IMG/VR virus record: IMGVR_UViG_3300034012_003301
Coordinates: 1-32,043 of that record
Direction: 5' to 3' (one strand)
Origin: a virus
Length of the DNA: 32,043 bases
The notes under the pieces were generated by a model, which worked only from the letters and a program-made list of their open reading frames with translations, was not told the DNA's origin and ran no database searches. Of the stretch, positions 969 through 22,285 are shown one piece after another (position 1 is the stretch's first letter; each line of letters begins with the position of its first letter). The position numbers and the translations under genes were made by a program.

Positions 969-1613
969 TTAAGGACATGATGGGCAGCTACTTGAAGTTG
1001 ATGTTGAGCCATTCATATAATTATATGTACCTGTTTCTAATGTAGTATAAGCTGATGGGATTACAGATCCAGAGTAAGTAAATGTAGATACTCCTTGTGA
1101 TAATCCTATTGAGAATGAAGAACTTATACAAGTACTACCACTAGGTATAACTAATGATCCAGTTAATATATTTCCAAGATGTCCAGTCCAGTCAAAGCTA
1201 ACTGACACCGCTGTATTTACAGCTATTGGTGTACTACCAGATACAGCATAAGCATATATTATCATATCAGCTGATGATGATTCTGGAGCGCATAAATTAA
1301 TAGCTATGAGTGAACCTGTTGGAGTTGGGGTTGGGGTTGGAGTTGGGGTTGGAGTTGAAGTTGGTGTTGGGGTAGGAGTTGGAGTAGCTGTTGGAGCAGG
1401 AGTAGTAACAGCTGGTGTTCCAAGTCCAGCACCAGCAGCAGCTACTGCGCTTTGCATACTTTGTTGTTGTTGTAAAGCCTCAAATAATTGAGTGGCATAT
1501 AGATTAGATTCCATCATATATTTTTTACTCACTTCATTAAGTGGTAAATTAACATTATCAGCTCTTTTTACATATTGAGCCCAAGGCCCTGGATCAAGTT
1601 GAATACGATACAT
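969..1613 (-). CDS. Pro/Thr-repeat (mucin-like) protein, possible virion component
   Basis: A 214-residue protein in three parts. Residues 1-65 are a helical N-terminal region with a Gln-rich stretch (ALQQQQSMQS) and an Ala/Gly-rich end. Residues about 70-99 are an uninterrupted Thr-Pro repeat. Residues 100-214 are a Ser/Thr-rich, probably beta-sandwich domain ending in SSSCPSCP, with four Cys in total. There is no signal peptide. The layout (anchor, extended PT linker, exposed beta domain) is common in phage fibre or decoration proteins. The same repeat type occurs in the LamG protein at 15346-16470. Function is inferred; PT linkers are typical acceptors for O-glycosylation and the window encodes glycosyltransferases. 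Confidence 0.75.
   Translation of the reverse strand: MYRIQLDPGPWAQYVKRADNVNLPLNEVSKKYMMESNLYATQLFEALQQQQSMQSAVAAAGAGLGTPAVTTPAPTATPTPTPTPTSTPTPTPTPTPTPTGSLIAINLCAPESSSADMIIYAYAVSGSTPIAVNTAVSVSFDWTGHLGNILTGSLVIPSGSTCISSSFSIGLSQGVSTFTYSGSVIPSAYTTLETGTYNYMNGSTSTSSSCPSCP
1318..1404 (-). repeat. Short tandem repeat encoding (Thr-Pro)n
   Basis: On the plus strand this is an imperfect GGNGTT hexamer repeat, read on the minus strand as alternating Pro and Thr codons. Codons vary at the third base, so the array is protein-selected and not a simple identical repeat. Confidence 0.9.
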
Positions 1614-15345: not shown

Positions 15346-16470
15346 TTACAATCCGTACTTTGCTTTAGTAGCATTATAGTTCTGTAATACTTCAGCTGCA
15401 CTTAATCCCTTAGTATAGAAATAACAGGCTCCTATTTTACCATTCAAATATAATGAACTAACACCAGTACCAATAAATCCTAAATATAAAGGATTGGCTT
15501 CAGTATAACCATCGTTACCATGTGCTGTTGATAATACTTCAGTTGTATTAATATAAACCTTTGTAGTATTGGTAGTTGATGTTATTTGTGACATAAACGT
15601 AAATAGATACCAGTTATTTATTGATACTGGATTGGTTGATGTTGTGGATATTCTTTGAGTTGCTGTTCCGTTTGTTACAACTCTTACATTTCCTGTGTTA
15701 GAGAATAATCCACCCCAATATCCATCAAAGGCAAAATTAGATGATAACTTACCAAATACTGGTATTTGTTGGTTTAGGCCTCCTAAAGCGTCAAATTTAA
15801 CCCATACTTGAATTGTTCTTTGAGTTGTTGTATTTAGGCTAAGGTTAGCTGTATGAGCAATTTGAATATTATCATTTATGCCATCCAAATCAAATATACC
15901 GCCATCATCACTTAACCAAGTAGCACCGTTGATAGTAGCATTATTACCATTACCTGTTTCATCAGTCCATTGACCGCTAGTATAGTTTGAAGCATCTAAC
16001 TCTATAAATAAGCTATTTGTAACTAAACCATTAACTGTTGGAGTTGCAGTTGGTGTTGAAGTTGGTGTTGCAGTTGGTGTTGAAGTTGGTGTAGATGTAT
16101 TTGTAGGGATTGGTGTAGGTGTAGGTGTTGGTGTGTTAGTTGGAGGAATAGGAGTTGAAGTTGGAGTTGGGGTTGGTGTATCTGTAGGAGTTGGAGTTGG
16201 TGTATCTGTAGGAGTTGGAGTTGGAGTATTAGTAGGAGTAGGGGATGGTGTAAATGTTGGTGTTGGAGATGGAGTAGGGGTAGGTGATGGAGTGGGAGTG
16301 GAAGTTGGAGTTGGTGTTGGTGTAGCAGTTGGAGTTGGAGTTGGTGGAAGAAAACGTTTTTTATTTTCTTCAAATATAATATATCCTTTATTAATTGAAG
16401 TCGTTATCCTTTCATTCTTTTTGAATGGATTTTTATCATTATTAAAAAAAGGATATTTATTTGATGTCAT
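15346..16470 (-). CDS. PT-repeat LamG-domain protein, likely fibre or adhesin
   Basis: 374 residues from ATG 16470; an upstream in-frame ATG lies inside a hairpin and is unlikely. Residues 1-41 are a basic N-terminal region, 42 to about 145 a Pro/Thr/Ser repeat of about 100 residues, and 155-374 a laminin-G/concanavalin-like jelly roll: [76 protein letters not shown] and [20 protein letters not shown], the usual LamG strand order. LamG domains bind carbohydrate. No signal peptide, so it is more likely a virion fibre or decoration protein than a secreted one. The repeat would be a good O-glycan acceptor. Confidence 0.88.
16030..16348 (-). repeat. Long tandem repeat encoding Pro/Thr/Ser linker
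   Basis: About 320 bases of imperfect GGNGTNGNT-type hexamers on the plus strand, read on the minus strand as Thr-Pro with occasional Ser, Asn, Asp, Ala, Phe and Ile. Third-base variation argues for selection on the protein. Confidence 0.92.
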
Positions 16471-16476
16471 TATATA

Positions 16477-16484
16477 TAAATATA
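16477..16484 (-). promoter_or_regulatory. TATATTTA box upstream of LamG gene
   Basis: TATATTTA on the minus strand, 6 bases before ATG 16470, directly after a terminator-like hairpin. It supports the shorter start. Confidence 0.45.
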
Positions 16485-16492
16485 GAGAATAA

Positions 16493-16514
16493 GTGCCCCT
16501 CATTTGAGGAGCAC
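16493..16514 (-). terminator. Terminator-like hairpin after the dcd gene
   Basis: GTGC(T)CCTC pairs with GAGG(G)GCAC around a 4-base AAAT loop, eight pairs with one mismatch. The minus-strand T tract (TTATTCT) is weak, while the plus strand has TTTT. It probably ends the long nucleotide-metabolism transcript. Confidence 0.6.
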
Positions 16515-16543: not shown

Positions 16544-17077
16544 TTATAATGAAATTCGTTGTTTATCATTTTGCCACTGACCATCATATTTTTCAGCAGA
16601 TTCACACTCATGAAAATAAATTTGTGCTACTCTAGCGTCTTTTTCAATGAATATTGTTTCATGAACATATAGTAATGTACCCATATTGTCTGTTTTAAAA
16701 CCTGGATCAAATACAGGTGAGTTAATAATAGCTCCATTACGATATAATGATGAACGTTGTTTAATAAATGCTACTCTATTATCAGGTATATTACATCCTT
16801 CCCAAAATGTAATATCATATACTCCTTCATATAATAGCCATCCCTCATTTCCATCTAATTGAATAGTATCAAGCGGAATGTAAGTAGTTAATTCAGTCTT
16901 ATCTTTTAATACTTTACCTATTTTAGCATCTTTATTAAAAGTTCCTCCTACAACTCTACTAGAACCTACTTTATTCACTGATTTTAAACTAAGATCATAC
17001 CCAACTTGTGCTGGTTTGCCTTTAGTTTCATCTAATTTAAGTAATTCTTCTTCTAAAATTTGTTTTACGTTTAACAT
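16544..17077 (-). CDS. dcd: dCTP deaminase/dUTPase superfamily protein
   Basis: A 177-residue trimeric-fold nucleotide hydrolase. GYDLSL (residues 26-31) corresponds to the YDLrLg motif, and KQRSSLYRNGAIINSPVFDPGF (about 106-127) to the S-S-x-x-R-x-G and D-x-G-F motifs that bind the nucleotide. Dcd makes dUTP from dCTP, and bifunctional forms go on to dUMP for dTTP synthesis; which activity this one has is not clear. The family's Asp/Glu deaminase signature should be aligned before fixing the reaction. It overlaps the phosphoribosyltransferase by 7 bases and ends the nucleotide operon. Confidence 0.82.
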   Translation of the reverse strand: MLNVKQILEEELLKLDETKGKPAQVGYDLSLKSVNKVGSSRVVGGTFNKDAKIGKVLKDKTELTTYIPLDTIQLDGNEGWLLYEGVYDITFWEGCNIPDNRVAFIKQRSSLYRNGAIINSPVFDPGFKTDNMGTLLYVHETIFIEKDARVAQIYFHECESAEKYDGQWQNDKQRISL

Positions 17078-17478
17078 AATTTATAGTCTTGTATTGTTTT
17101 TGAGTCTTTATTTTCCCATGGATAAACTATCCATTCATTTTCATAAGCTATTTCCCAAAAGTAATGAGGTTGATATTCAGATGATTGTTTCCAATGTAGA
17201 GCAGCAGTATAAATATTATTTTCAAATTTAAATCGCTTTAATGTTTTACCTGTATCACAAATATCATCTACAACTAGAATATCACCTGCTACTGATGCTA
17301 TATTAGCTTGAGCTACAAATGGAATACTTAATCTATGAGATAGCATTACAGCAGCAATTAATCCTCCACGAGGTAGTCCTCCAACAGCTTCAAATTTAAT
17401 TCCACTAGTATGAATACTAGCTACTAGTCTATTAATCGCTCTATCAACATCATTCCAATTTAAATATCGCTTATCCAT
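17071..17478 (-). CDS. Gpt-like guanine/xanthine phosphoribosyltransferase
   Basis: A 135-residue type I PRTase. The PRPP loop is GDILVVDDICDTGKTLKRF (about 66-84), an excellent match to the 13-residue motif with the two Asp. VGGLPRGGLIAAVMLSHRL matches the RGGL-P-x-L region of xanthine-guanine PRTase (Gpt), and ENEWIVYPWE corresponds to the Gpt base-binding WIEQPW segment. The reaction would be PRPP plus guanine or xanthine to GMP or XMP. It overlaps folE by 1 base. In this operon it could salvage the guanine that DpdA displaces from DNA, returning it toward GTP, the FolE substrate (inference). Confidence 0.8.
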   Translation of the reverse strand: MDKRYLNWNDVDRAINRLVASIHTSGIKFEAVGGLPRGGLIAAVMLSHRLSIPFVAQANIASVAGDILVVDDICDTGKTLKRFKFENNIYTAALHWKQSSEYQPHYFWEIAYENEWIVYPWENKDSKTIQDYKLC

Positions 17479-18203
17479 TATTTATATCCTTCCATATTTA
17501 GTTTTAACATTTCAATTACCTCCATCTTAGCTGTTCTACTATGATCAGCAAATACACCTGATACTTCACTTGTAACCATACTAGCACCAAAGTGTTTTAC
17601 CCCACGACAACTAACACAATTGTGGTATGAATGTACTACTACCATTACATTTTCAGTTTCAGCTACAGCTTGAATAGCATTATGGATTGCTACTGTAAGT
17701 TGTTCTTGAATAGCTCCTCTACGAGCAAAATGTTCTACAATACGATTCAACTTACTTAAACCTACTACTTTACCATCTTCACCTGGTATATAAGCAATAT
17801 GTGCTTTACCTAAAATAGCTTGATGGTGATGAGAACACATACTTACAATTGGAATATCTCTTTCTAATACAATACCAGCGTAACCATCACTTGGAAATGC
17901 TGTAATGTCAGTTGGTAACTCATATCTACCTCTCCATAAATCAAACACATATGCTTTAGCTACACGACGAGGTGTTTCCATACTATTTGGATCATTTTCC
18001 CAATCAACACCAAGTGCTGTTAAAAACTGTCCATATGCTTTTTCAGCGTTAGCTACTATACCCCATTTTTCATCATCATTTAAAGAACGATGATATCCAT
18101 CTTCAAGTAATGACTTTAAATGAGTTGAAATACCGTTAGCAAAACCGGCTTGTGCTGTTTCTAATGTCTCTGCATTAGCAATTTTCCTGCGTTTGTTCTC
18201 CAT
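17478..18203 (-). CDS. folE: GTP cyclohydrolase I (FolE)
   Basis: A 241-residue enzyme converting GTP to 7,8-dihydroneopterin triphosphate, the first step of 7-deazaguanine synthesis. The zinc ligands are intact: Cys123 and His126 in CSHHHQAILGKAHIAYIPG, and Cys196 in HNCVSCRGV. GLSKLNRIVEHFARR and the QEQLT helix are canonical. An additional Cys (199) lies two residues before the RG of the RGV motif. The start is downstream of an overlapping small gene (29-base overlap), and the stop overlaps the PRTase start by 1 base. In this context it serves preQ0/DNA modification more likely than folate synthesis, since no other folate gene is present. Confidence 0.96.
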   Translation of the reverse strand: MENKRRKIANAETLETAQAGFANGISTHLKSLLEDGYHRSLNDDEKWGIVANAEKAYGQFLTALGVDWENDPNSMETPRRVAKAYVFDLWRGRYELPTDITAFPSDGYAGIVLERDIPIVSMCSHHHQAILGKAHIAYIPGEDGKVVGLSKLNRIVEHFARRGAIQEQLTVAIHNAIQAVAETENVMVVVHSYHNCVSCRGVKHFGASMVTSEVSGVFADHSRTAKMEVIEMLKLNMEGYK

Positions 18204-18827: not shown

Positions 18828-19661
18828 TTATACATTTAATGTTTTATTCCAAGCTGAAATGTGTAGACGAGTAAGTCCTCTGAACTTGTAGATCTTGGCC
18901 ATTTCAAGAACGAAATTAGTACGCTCGTGGAAATCATCTTGATCATCTAAACCAGGCATACACACTACATTTTTAAGTGGAATATTAAATGGTTCTACAA
19001 AGTCGCGGAATAATTCCTTAACATCATCTTCTGTGCTGATAACGAATTTAAATTGATAATTACTATGTTCCATTATACGTTTAATAGCAGCAGGTACAAT
19101 ACGTTGTTTTTCGGTCATACCTGAGTTTGCTAGTTTAGGGGAGCAATTGATTTGGTTAATCCAGCTGAATAAATTAGTTCCAATTTCAACAGTACCATTT
19201 GTTTCTATTTCATTATATACATTAGATAAGTCTTTATCTTGACTTAACCAATATGTAAAGAAATTACAAATAGCATCCTGATGGCCTTTAATTGTAGGTT
19301 CACCACCTGTCCAAATGATATGAATGTTACCATTTTTAATATCATCATAGATACCTTGTTCTTTCCAACGATCAATTAGATATTGGAACTCTTTATCTTC
19401 ACCTCTCCACAACCACTGACTTGTAGAATCACAAGTCCATGTTGCTTTACCTTCAGCGTGTAAATCACCTACGAAGATTTCTCCGTCTTCTAGTTTCTTT
19501 TCCTTCTCTAATTGATTGGCAAACTTACGGCTCATACCGCAAGTTAGATTACAGATACCTAATCTTACAAAGTAAGAGGGCACTCCTGAGGAGATACCCT
19601 CACCTTGGACAGAGTAGAAGTCACTAGAAATTAATAATTTGTTTGGATCTATTTTACTCAT
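18828..19661 (-). CDS. queE: QueE, 7-carboxy-7-deazaguanine synthase (radical SAM)
   Basis: 277 residues. QueE rearranges 6-carboxy-5,6,7,8-tetrahydropterin to 7-carboxy-7-deazaguanine. FYSVQGEGISSGVPSYFVRL is a typical QueE start, and IIWTGGEPTI is the SAM-binding GGEP motif; EIETNGT and the CSPKLANSG segment also match. The 4Fe-4S motif is unusual: C37-x3-C41 is followed by about 35 inserted residues before C77 (WTCDST), where canonical members have C-x3-C-x2-C. The inserted part is charged (LEKEKKLEDGE). The gene overlaps the 75-aa gene by 4 bases. Confidence 0.9.
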   Translation of the reverse strand: MSKIDPNKLLISSDFYSVQGEGISSGVPSYFVRLGICNLTCGMSRKFANQLEKEKKLEDGEIFVGDLHAEGKATWTCDSTSQWLWRGEDKEFQYLIDRWKEQGIYDDIKNGNIHIIWTGGEPTIKGHQDAICNFFTYWLSQDKDLSNVYNEIETNGTVEIGTNLFSWINQINCSPKLANSGMTEKQRIVPAAIKRIMEHSNYQFKFVISTEDDVKELFRDFVEPFNIPLKNVVCMPGLDDQDDFHERTNFVLEMAKIYKFRGLTRLHISAWNKTLNV

Positions 19662-19885: not shown

Positions 19886-20007
19886 TTAAATAATGTTTTT
19901 ATATAATTAAATATAGGACTTATATTTTGCCAATCTGCAAGTACACTTAATATACTGAAGTGTTTTTCACCACATAATCCTAATGCATGTTCTATAACAT
20001 GAATCAT
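19882..20007 (-). CDS. 41-residue microprotein between QueC and the 75-aa gene
   Basis: The frame starts at ATG 20007, which overlaps the queC TGA as ATGA, and ends at a TGA that overlaps the next ATG. It encodes MIHVIEHALGLCGEKHFSIL and so on, ending in YIKTLFK. It is amphipathic, with three His and one Cys in the first 16 residues. Perfect 4-base overlap at both ends, no gap, and a filled 118-base space between two coding genes argue that it is real. No family recognised. Confidence 0.65.
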   Translation of the reverse strand: MIHVIEHALGLCGEKHFSILSVLADWQNISPIFNYIKTLFK

Positions 20008-20831
20008 ATATTAGTTTTTTTATGTTCTAATAATACTTGTTCTACATGTGCTTTTACTTCATCCCACTGTATTATTCTAACTCCATCCTCAATTTTTTCA
20101 CCATATATTACAGGATCAGGACGACCTAATTTAATAAACGCTTCAATACGCTCTACGGACGCGGCTGATTTAAAATCAGATACCCAATATCCTTCTTCAA
20201 CTTTAATTGGCTTATAAGATGTATTAGTACGAGAATAAACTTCATCAAAGTCTAATTCTAATTTTTCACAACATTTTAACCCATCTTCTAGAATAGTAAA
20301 TTTATTCATTTTAAGATACGGTGTATAAAAACTTACTAATTCAGAATCCCAATTACCAATTTTAAATGCTTCCATATCAGCATCTCTAAATTCTTGTCTA
20401 CAATCAGGATAAATAGCATGGTCACCAGCGTGAATACCTAATGCAATATGTACTTCTTGTTTCTCACCTTTAGTAGCAATTGACAATGCTACTGCTTGAA
20501 TAATAGAGCTAAATATTTTATTACGATTAGGAACAACAGTTTCTTTCATATTGTCTTGTTCGTAATGTCCTTCAGGTACATCTTTACCACCTTCAACTAA
20601 AGCTGAATTAAGTAGTTGCTGTAATCCGTCTAGTTTGATAATCTGGTGTGTTACATTTTGTCCTTTAGAATTTAAATACTTCACTAACGATGTAGCACGT
20701 TCAAGTTCTACTTTATGTTTCTGTCCATAATCAAAGGATAGAGCTGTTACTTCATAGCCATTGGCGAGTAGATGAAGCAGCAAGGTGGAGCTATCCATTC
20801 CTCCACTTAATGATAATACTGCTTTTTTCAT
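20004..20831 (-). CDS. queC: QueC-like 7-cyano-7-deazaguanine synthase lacking zinc Cys
   Basis: 275 residues. QueC uses ATP and ammonia to turn 7-carboxy-7-deazaguanine into preQ0. The PP-loop SLSGGMDSSTLLLHL (7-21), LSFDYGQKHKVEL, TVVPNRNKIFSSI and HAGDHAIYPDCRQEF are textbook. The C-terminal zinc site is not: where the family has a Cys in SCY and three more in CGxCxxC, this protein has Ser205 (TSY), Ser218, Ser222 and Ser225 (SDFKSAASVER). It may still be active with a different structure, or have changed chemistry. ATGA overlaps join it to dpdA and to the 41-aa gene. Confidence 0.9.
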   Translation of the reverse strand: MKKAVLSLSGGMDSSTLLLHLLANGYEVTALSFDYGQKHKVELERATSLVKYLNSKGQNVTHQIIKLDGLQQLLNSALVEGGKDVPEGHYEQDNMKETVVPNRNKIFSSIIQAVALSIATKGEKQEVHIALGIHAGDHAIYPDCRQEFRDADMEAFKIGNWDSELVSFYTPYLKMNKFTILEDGLKCCEKLELDFDEVYSRTNTSYKPIKVEEGYWVSDFKSAASVERIEAFIKLGRPDPVIYGEKIEDGVRIIQWDEVKAHVEQVLLEHKKTNI

Positions 20832-21613
20832 TGTATATATTGTTTAAATTTATTAATATTGAATTTAATATCTTCCATTCGCTCAGTCAAATCTACTTCA
20901 AATAATTCTTCAATCTTAGTCTTTGGTTTATATTCAATTCCATTATCTCCATATCTAACACCTTCAGATCCTACAATAATTGGATTTGATGTATCAACTG
21001 ATTTAATCCAATCAAATTTAGTATAGGCCATAAATTCTTGAGGTAATGAACAACCAAGTAAATGATGATATATTTCTTTTCTAATAGTATCTTTTTCAAT
21101 TAAACGTCTAATTAATTCAATTCTGCCTAACATTTGAGCATATACTGGTTTATGCTGTGGGTAGAAATCAGTATAGGCTATACTAGAATGATTAAATGCA
21201 ATATGTTTATATCCTATATCTACTAATGTTTGATATGTAGTTATTAATTCACCCATATCTTTACCTTGACATACAGCCATTAAATTAGTACCTTCAGGTA
21301 ATTTATCTTTATAATTAAGCATCCAATGCTTAGCATTTCGTAAAGTAGCATTAGCATCATTCCATTCATCAGGTACAATGAATATATCTGGTTTGACTAA
21401 CCATATTTTATCGAATAGATCTTCAGTTGTATGGGTTACACCTTCAAATAACCCATTATCCATAATAATGAAACGTTTATCTAAACGTGCTTTTTGAAAG
21501 AATAATCTATAACGATCGTATTTGTCTATTAAATGTGGGAGGCAATAATCATAATCGTTCCACTCATAACTGTGATTCATTAATTCAATAGGTAACTCAT
21601 GACTTACTTTCAT
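20828..21613 (-). CDS. dpdA: DpdA-like DNA 7-deazaguanine transglycosylase
   Basis: A 261-residue TGT-fold protein that would exchange guanine in DNA for a 7-deazaguanine base. IIMDNGLFEG (D52) takes the place of the TGT S-D-S-G-G segment with its acid/base Asp; IVPDEW lies at 79-84; VCQGKDM, then HHLLGCSLPQEF matches the L-G-G-x-x-G-E region; and WIKSVDTSNP supplies Asp207, the presumed nucleophile. At 261 residues it is shorter than tRNA TGTs (about 370-380), and it lacks the Cys3-His zinc site. It resembles phage DpdA rather than tRNA enzymes. It overlaps queC by 4 bases, and no tRNA-modifying partner is seen. Confidence 0.85.
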   Translation of the reverse strand: MKVSHELPIELMNHSYEWNDYDYCLPHLIDKYDRYRLFFQKARLDKRFIIMDNGLFEGVTHTTEDLFDKIWLVKPDIFIVPDEWNDANATLRNAKHWMLNYKDKLPEGTNLMAVCQGKDMGELITTYQTLVDIGYKHIAFNHSSIAYTDFYPQHKPVYAQMLGRIELIRRLIEKDTIRKEIYHHLLGCSLPQEFMAYTKFDWIKSVDTSNPIIVGSEGVRYGDNGIEYKPKTKIEELFEVDLTERMEDIKFNINKFKQYIQ

Positions 21614-21618
21614 ATTGT

Positions 21619-21831
21619 TTATTTATAATGGTGTAATTTCTTTTTCCATTTATCAATTTGTGTCTGGCAATACCATTTGCCTAACCAACTAGAGGCGTTA
21701 AAATATTTTTTCTCCCATTCTTCTATTTTTCTAAATATAGGAGCATTAGCTTTATTTATAATATCAATATCATAATAGCTATTTTCCTCTAGCATTGCTT
21801 TTTCCCATTCTTCTTTTTTACTCTTACTCAT
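21619..21831 (-). CDS. Small Trp/Lys-rich protein, unknown
   Basis: 70 residues, highly charged, with repeated E/W/K helices (KKEEWEKAMLEENSYY, EEWEKKYFNASSWL, KWYCQTQIDKWKKK). No family recognised. It overlaps the QueD-like gene by 8 bases and lies 5 bases before dpdA, so it is a member of the same operon. The helical, Trp-studded layout fits a small binding or adaptor protein. Confidence 0.6.
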   Translation of the reverse strand: MSKSKKEEWEKAMLEENSYYDIDIINKANAPIFRKIEEWEKKYFNASSWLGKWYCQTQIDKWKKKLHHYK

Positions 21832-22285
21832 ATATAGCTGTATTTTTATTATGTTCCATAAATTCTACTCTTACAACTTTAACTCTACCATTTGTTTCTT
21901 CTTGAACAAATGTATCTAGTTTTTCAAAAACATATTTTGCAAATTGTTCTGCTCCAACAGCTGGAAGTATTCTTAATTGGATAATACCTAATTGGTCCAT
22001 TGTTTTAAATCCACCTAATCCTGGATCATCTTCAGCAATAATTGTAGTATGATCAAACATATGATCCATCCATGCTTTAGGATTTTTACCATCAATAGTA
22101 CCTTTAGCACGTTTCATGCCTCCAAAATCCCAAACCCAATTACGTTCATCTAGTTCACCTTCGAACCATACTCTAAATGATACTCCATAACCGTGAAGAA
22201 ATCTACAATGTGTTCCTTCTGCTTTCCATTGACGGAATACTGTACTAAATCCATCAAATAATTTTGTTGACTGAAATTTACTCAT
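21824..22285 (-). CDS. queD: QueD-like 6-pyruvoyl-tetrahydropterin synthase-fold protein
   Basis: 153 residues. QueD makes 6-carboxy-tetrahydropterin from dihydroneopterin triphosphate. The fold and catalytic residues are visible: Cys27 in GTHCRFLHG, Asp78-His79 in MFDHTT, and Glu144 in VEFMEHNKNTAIY. Two of three zinc His differ: the FSAAH His is Phe17 (FSTVF), and the HGH motif reads His31-Gly-Tyr33. About 20-30 extra residues lie in the middle. It may be a slow or altered QueD, a metal-free variant, or a paralogue that does another step while the host supplies QueD. ATGA overlap with the 163-aa gene. Confidence 0.82.
   Translation of the reverse strand: MSKFQSTKLFDGFSTVFRQWKAEGTHCRFLHGYGVSFRVWFEGELDERNWVWDFGGMKRAKGTIDGKNPKAWMDHMFDHTTIIAEDDPGLGGFKTMDQLGIIQLRILPAVGAEQFAKYVFEKLDTFVQEETNGRVKVVRVEFMEHNKNTAIYE

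Follow-up and report, generated by a model that had tools for sequence, protein, structure and literature searches.

A viral stretch of 32,043 nucleotides (IMG/VR record IMGVR_UViG_3300034012_003301; hereafter, the window) encodes what is probably a zinc-free variant of the known enzyme QueC. Going by its sequence, we put the chance that this assignment is right at roughly 80%. The gene lies at 20004-20831 on the minus strand and encodes a protein of 275 amino acids. According to a 2026 survey of the family, a motif of four zinc-binding cysteines is the hallmark of QueC, and zinc is required for its function (PMC13329287). The protein in the window has none of these four cysteines.

A QueC that lacks the zinc motif

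The initial annotation had named this open reading frame as a QueC, and profile searches agree: it matches PF06508 with E = 1.8e-40 (139.1 bits, where the cut-off is 22). Its score against TIGR00364, the NCBIfam equivalog model for QueC, was 137.6 bits, which is below the cut-off of 150.3. AlphaFold2 gave a confident model (pLDDT 95.1, pTM 0.92) whose closest matches in the PDB are the QueC structures 2pg3 and 3bl5; a relative with the cysteines gave a model of similar quality. The C-terminal region, for which the initial annotation had proposed a structure prediction, is predicted to keep a confident fold, with pLDDT of 94-98 across residues 201-230, where the zinc site used to be.

To map the zinc site, we used alignments to QueC from E. 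coli, mycobacteria, Vibrio, and other phages, as well as an alignment of 206 sequences. The zinc cysteines of E. coli (188, 197, 200, and 203) correspond to S205 (codon TCT at 20217-20219, minus strand, as are all of the codons given here), D219, S222 (TCA, 20166-20168), and S225 (TCC, 20157-20159). The protein therefore has S-D-S-S where the motif C(x)8CxxCxxC would have its four cysteines. The initial annotation had stated that all four cysteines were replaced by serine. Residues 205, 218, 222, and 225 are indeed all serine, and the claim stands for three of these, but not for Ser218: if the alignment is extended backwards from R228 without gaps, then the second cysteine is matched by Asp219, and Ser218 is one residue earlier (Ser218-Asp219, 20175-20180). 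So the site is S-D-S-S, with an invariant serine just before the aspartate, rather than four serines.

The site seems to be kept or lost as a whole. Among the 206 sequences, 132 have no cysteine at the four positions, 74 have all four, and none are intermediate. We also considered whether the true metal site might be elsewhere in the protein. Across the 206-sequence alignment, we found no new conserved cluster of cysteines or histidines that could rebuild it, and we rejected a relocated site.

Conservation across phages

A scan of IMG/VR identified 446 stretches that encode such a protein. We aligned the best 80 of these 446 together with the homologue from Flavobacterium phage immuto (57.6% identical to the protein in the window) and the window's own protein, for a total of 82. 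This also answers a call in the initial annotation for a survey of phage homologues. S205, S218, D219, S222, and S225 are invariant in all 82, even though the median pairwise identity is 76% and the minimum is 60%. Several other serines vary across the same homologues, which excludes chance as the explanation for the five-residue pattern.

The active site is conserved as well. In E. coli QueC, key residues of the active-site signature have been tested by mutation, and Y35A, R99A, Y131A, and Y189A are inactive (PMC13329287). SGGxDS, YxQxHxxE (Y35, Q37, H39, and E42), VPxRN, YPDC, K165, and Y189 (E. coli numbering) are kept in 81 of 81 phage homologues and in 18 of 18 cellular relatives (see below); the cysteine of YPDC, Cys144, is retained in all 81 of the phage proteins. 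Hence the PP-loop and the substrate motifs are intact in every respect that we tested, as had been claimed. The equivalent of the essential Y189 is Tyr206 (20214-20216), which is invariant and directly adjoins the first of the lost cysteines.

These phages do not seem to have another QueC. In each of the 30 phage records that we searched, there was a single protein that matched PF06508 (two pieces in G042 are one frame), and we did not find a second, canonical QueC in any of these 30 records.

Cellular relatives

When we scanned genomes, we found QueC without the zinc cysteines in Marine Group II archaea (Poseidoniales) and in Pirellulaceae. These proteins are 46-56% identical to the phage type and share its active-site motifs. 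They differ from the phage proteins in having mostly SSSD at the zinc positions, rather than SDSS; they are also cellular, with a tRNA transglycosylase (TGT) in the genome, and the archaeal ones are often fused to MsrB. Across the flavophage, archaeal, and planctomycete proteins, the patterns are SDSS, SSSD, SSTD, SHTD, and SDTD.

We examined 18 cellular genomes (15 archaea and 3 planctomycetes). Every strong match to PF06508 in all 18 of them lacks the cysteines (there is one match in 17 of the genomes and two in G014). These genomes were assembled from metagenomes, so a second QueC, or salvage of preQ0, could be missed. TGT is present in 17 of the 18 genomes, the ArcS-type domain DUF5591 in 15 of 15 archaea, and QueF in 3 of 3 planctomycetes. 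We then turned to a larger set of 146 genomes from Poseidoniales: a clear orthologue was present in 122, and all 30 of those we read lack the cysteines. Of the QueC proteins that we read from a wider draw of Planctomycetota, 29 of 30 are of the cysteine type, so the trait is rare there. In one Marine Group II locus (L134), the gene order is folE-queE-queC-queD, with FolE, QueC, and QueD identified by profile; the queC of this locus (L134:4983-6149) is a clear fusion, with a methionine-R-sulfoxide reductase domain (MsrB, SelR) at the C terminus. The GCGWP motif of MsrB is found in 21 of the 30 Poseidoniales frames that we read. We did not find a published description of the loss in Poseidoniales or Pirellulaceae in the literature that we searched.

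The zinc site was lost at least twice

We computed a tree of QueC without the zinc region. The phage proteins with the serine pattern group with the archaeal and planctomycete proteins (SH-aLRT 100), while a clade of proteins similar to that of Rhizobium phage RHph_X3_2 lies apart (SH-aLRT 99). A minimum of four changes in the state of the cysteines is needed on this tree, and the zinc site has been lost at least twice independently. The RHph_X3_2-type proteins are like the protein in the window in that they lack the cysteines, have matching active-site motifs, and are encoded near folE, queD, and queE. Unlike it, they form a separate clade, with other residues at the four positions (A/S; mostly T/V/I; D/N; and S/T/N), and two relatives of this clade (L123 and L126) have all four cysteines in the corresponding columns. 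One further contig without the cysteines (L130) has a long branch, so its placement is unsure.

Gene neighborhood

The gene is surrounded by other genes for 7-deazaguanine synthesis, all on the minus strand. These are folE (GTP cyclohydrolase I; 17478-18203; PF01227, E = 6e-46), which has the usual metal-ligand motif CSHHH; a QueE-like radical SAM enzyme (18828-19661; phrog_2076, E = 5.3e-39, and NCBIfam QueE models); a putative DpdA/TGT-like DNA guanine transglycosylase (20828-21613), whose gene overlaps the start of queC; and queD (21824-22285; PF01242, phrog_2389). The linkage to queD and queE that is expected of a canonical QueC is present. Among 43 loci with full flanks, QueE was near the cysteine-less QueC in 42, a DpdA-like protein in 42, QueD in 40, and FolE in 34.

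The DpdA-like protein is diverged. It is 35% identical to an immuto protein that is annotated as “DNA guanine transglycosylase,” and it has a conserved TGT-like region (HLLG...D.S.P). It had no match to Pfam (the TGT profile) or NCBIfam, a weak match to the PDB profile of the DNA-guanine transglycosylase 7ui4 (E = 0.86), and no significant match by hhalign to three DpdA proteins from mycobacterial and arthrobacterial phages (probability 6.5%). It appears to belong to a diverged TGT-like group that also occurs in phages of the Campylobacter phage CP220 type, and beyond the flavophages, its nearest homologues are from the CP220 group.

A two-domain QueF is encoded alongside the cysteine-less QueC in immuto, L036, and L047. 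In L036 and L047, queF has the DpdA-like gene on one side and a formyltransferase-like gene on the other; in immuto, queF and a formyltransferase-like gene both fall within this region. We saw no QueF in most phages of this clade, including the fragment in the window. FolE and QueF belong to the same T-fold superfamily. We rejected weak matches to PF14489, in frames of about 200 amino acids, as cross-matches to FolE rather than QueF; the two such frames that we read look FolE-like. In three flavophage contigs (L263, L264, and L259), the DpdA-like gene, queF, a PurN-like formyltransferase, and a small kinase are close together, which suggests a formylated base of the preQ1 type in the DNA. Such a base was reportedly among four additional 7-deazaguanines found in phages.

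Proposed reaction and alternative explanations

We infer a metal-free enzyme, its chemistry, the role of the serines and the aspartate, and the base in this phage's DNA as follows. The enzyme would bind ATP at the PP-loop and activate the carboxyl group of 7-carboxy-7-deazaguanine (CDG); ammonia would then be added to give the amide (ADG), which would be dehydrated to the nitrile preQ0 in a second ATP-dependent step. The C-terminal knuckle, which in canonical QueC is held together by a zinc ion bound to four cysteines, would be held without metal by the invariant S205, S218-D219, S222, and S225. The product would be passed to the neighboring DpdA-like transglycosylase and exchanged for guanine in the phage's DNA, and the modified DNA would be protected against nucleases from the host. 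We have good confidence in this proposal as the best explanation.

It is established that QueF reduces the nitrile preQ0. Since QueF also occurs with the cysteine-less QueC, this enzyme most likely still converts CDG to preQ0, and its co-occurrence with TGT and with the ArcS-type domain points the same way. For phages without QueF, including the one in the window, the gene content fits either preQ0 or ADG as the end product. Of the two possibilities raised in the initial annotation, that QueC is stable without zinc or that its reaction has changed, the former draws support from the conserved subfamily with its complete active-site signature, from its status as the sole strong QueC type in 18 of 18 cellular genomes with tRNA pathways that use preQ0, and from its occurrence with QueF in some phages.

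A specific form of the changed reaction is that, without zinc, QueC stops at ADG and the phage's DNA carries dADG. This would fit with the lack of an apparent QueF in most phages of the clade and with the nearest non-flavophage relatives of the DpdA-like protein being in the CP220 group, as the DNA of CP220 is reported to have dADG in place of all dG (in a passage of PMC8306585 that cites earlier work). However, CP220's own QueC keeps all four cysteines, so losing the cysteines and ending the synthesis at the amide do not go hand in hand. Also, relatives without the cysteines occur with QueF, a nitrile reductase, and with ArcS-type proteins, and the active-site signature is unchanged. We rejected stopping at the amide as the main reading because of CP220 and the co-occurrence with QueF, and we consider it unlikely; the wider idea of a changed reaction is unsupported on the same grounds, as far as that passage describes CP220. 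In MED16, another dADG phage, we detected dpdA alone. It is also conceivable that the knuckle still binds zinc or another ion, via Asp219 and oxygens from serines or the backbone, or via recruited residues. The four positions are polar in the flavophage, archaeal, and planctomycete proteins, but serine-rich sites are weak zinc ligands, the clade has no new conserved cysteine or histidine, and the second cysteine-less clade has Ala, Val, Ile, Asn, and Thr there, which are poor ligands. This makes a retained metal very unlikely.

That the protein is degenerate and non-functional, or that the alignment is in error, is scarcely credible: we found nothing in favor of either, the strict conservation of the site, together with the conserved gene cluster, already refutes degeneracy, and the alignment is gapless from R228, with the cysteines of L123 and L126 falling in those same columns. 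A separate question, whose answer is compatible with a zinc-free QueC, is why the cysteines were lost. Sparing of zinc or resistance to oxidation can be suggested only tentatively. Poseidoniales inhabit the surface ocean, which is rich in reactive oxygen species (PMC10783094), and their QueC often carries the MsrB-type motif or, in L134, the fused domain; the Zur regulon of Neisseria meningitidis includes queC (PMC6103462); and the repeated loss would fit either cause. On the other hand, type I FolE, itself a zinc enzyme, is retained in this pathway, so zinc is not avoided pathway-wide.

Comparison with known systems and implications

The protein in the window shares the PP-loop fold, the active-site motifs, and the linkage to queD, queE, and folE with canonical QueC (E. 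coli b0444 and B. subtilis 3BL5). It differs from canonical QueC (PF06508 cluster 1) in lacking C(x)8CxxCxxC, in having a longer loop before the knuckle, and in scoring below the TIGR00364 cut-off. The deazaguanylation enzymes QatC and Cap9 also have the QueC fold, but they keep the zinc cysteines and are encoded in defense operons, and QatC lacks the active-site motifs of QueC (PMC13329287, PMC13279940). With QueC motifs, no zinc cysteines, and a folE/queD/queE/dpdA context, the window's protein belongs to neither group.

There is also an analogy outside of this family. Zinc-ribbon ribosomal proteins can have “C-minus” paralogues that do not depend on zinc, in which a structural site with four cysteines was lost as a unit while the fold and the role were kept. 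These proteins are unrelated to QueC, and a C-minus paralogue is usually a second copy under the control of Zur, whereas the cysteine-less QueC is the only type present.

We did not find a description of a cysteine-less QueC in the literature that we searched, which was not exhaustive, and it is likely new. The loss is fixed in many phage copies, and abundant archaea of the ocean and some planctomycetes share it and lack any other QueC, so zinc is probably dispensable in QueC. More broadly, we consider it likely that a widespread zinc-free QueC, which phages share with Poseidoniales and which is the sole type in the latter, performs the full two-step synthesis of the nitrile, and that zinc, lost at least twice, is a replaceable structural staple. 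Phage contigs commonly encode this type, and Poseidoniales have no other, so the role of zinc can be tested directly. Annotation rules that demand the zinc motif of QueC should be used with caution, and these proteins offer natural metal-free enzymes for work on nitrile synthesis and on the modification of phage DNA.

Other genes in the window

With folE on one side and a dCTP-deaminase-like gene on the other, a phosphoribosyltransferase gene (17071-17478, minus strand; PF00156) encodes an enzyme that may use a deazaguanine base as its substrate; such a gene is within 6 kb of queC in 15 of the 43 loci with full flanks. In the QueE of the window, about 35 residues separate the second iron-sulfur cysteine from the third (CNLTC...WTCDS), where two is the norm for QueE. 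This spacing of about 35 residues is found in 54 of 61 related phage QueE proteins, and the other 7 have a short version with 7 residues; in the QueE of Poseidoniales, the spacing is normal. Finally, two frames in the window, at 15346-16503 and at 969-1613 (minus strand), have long proline-threonine repeats (PTPTPT), and one of these ends in a lectin/laminin-G-like region.
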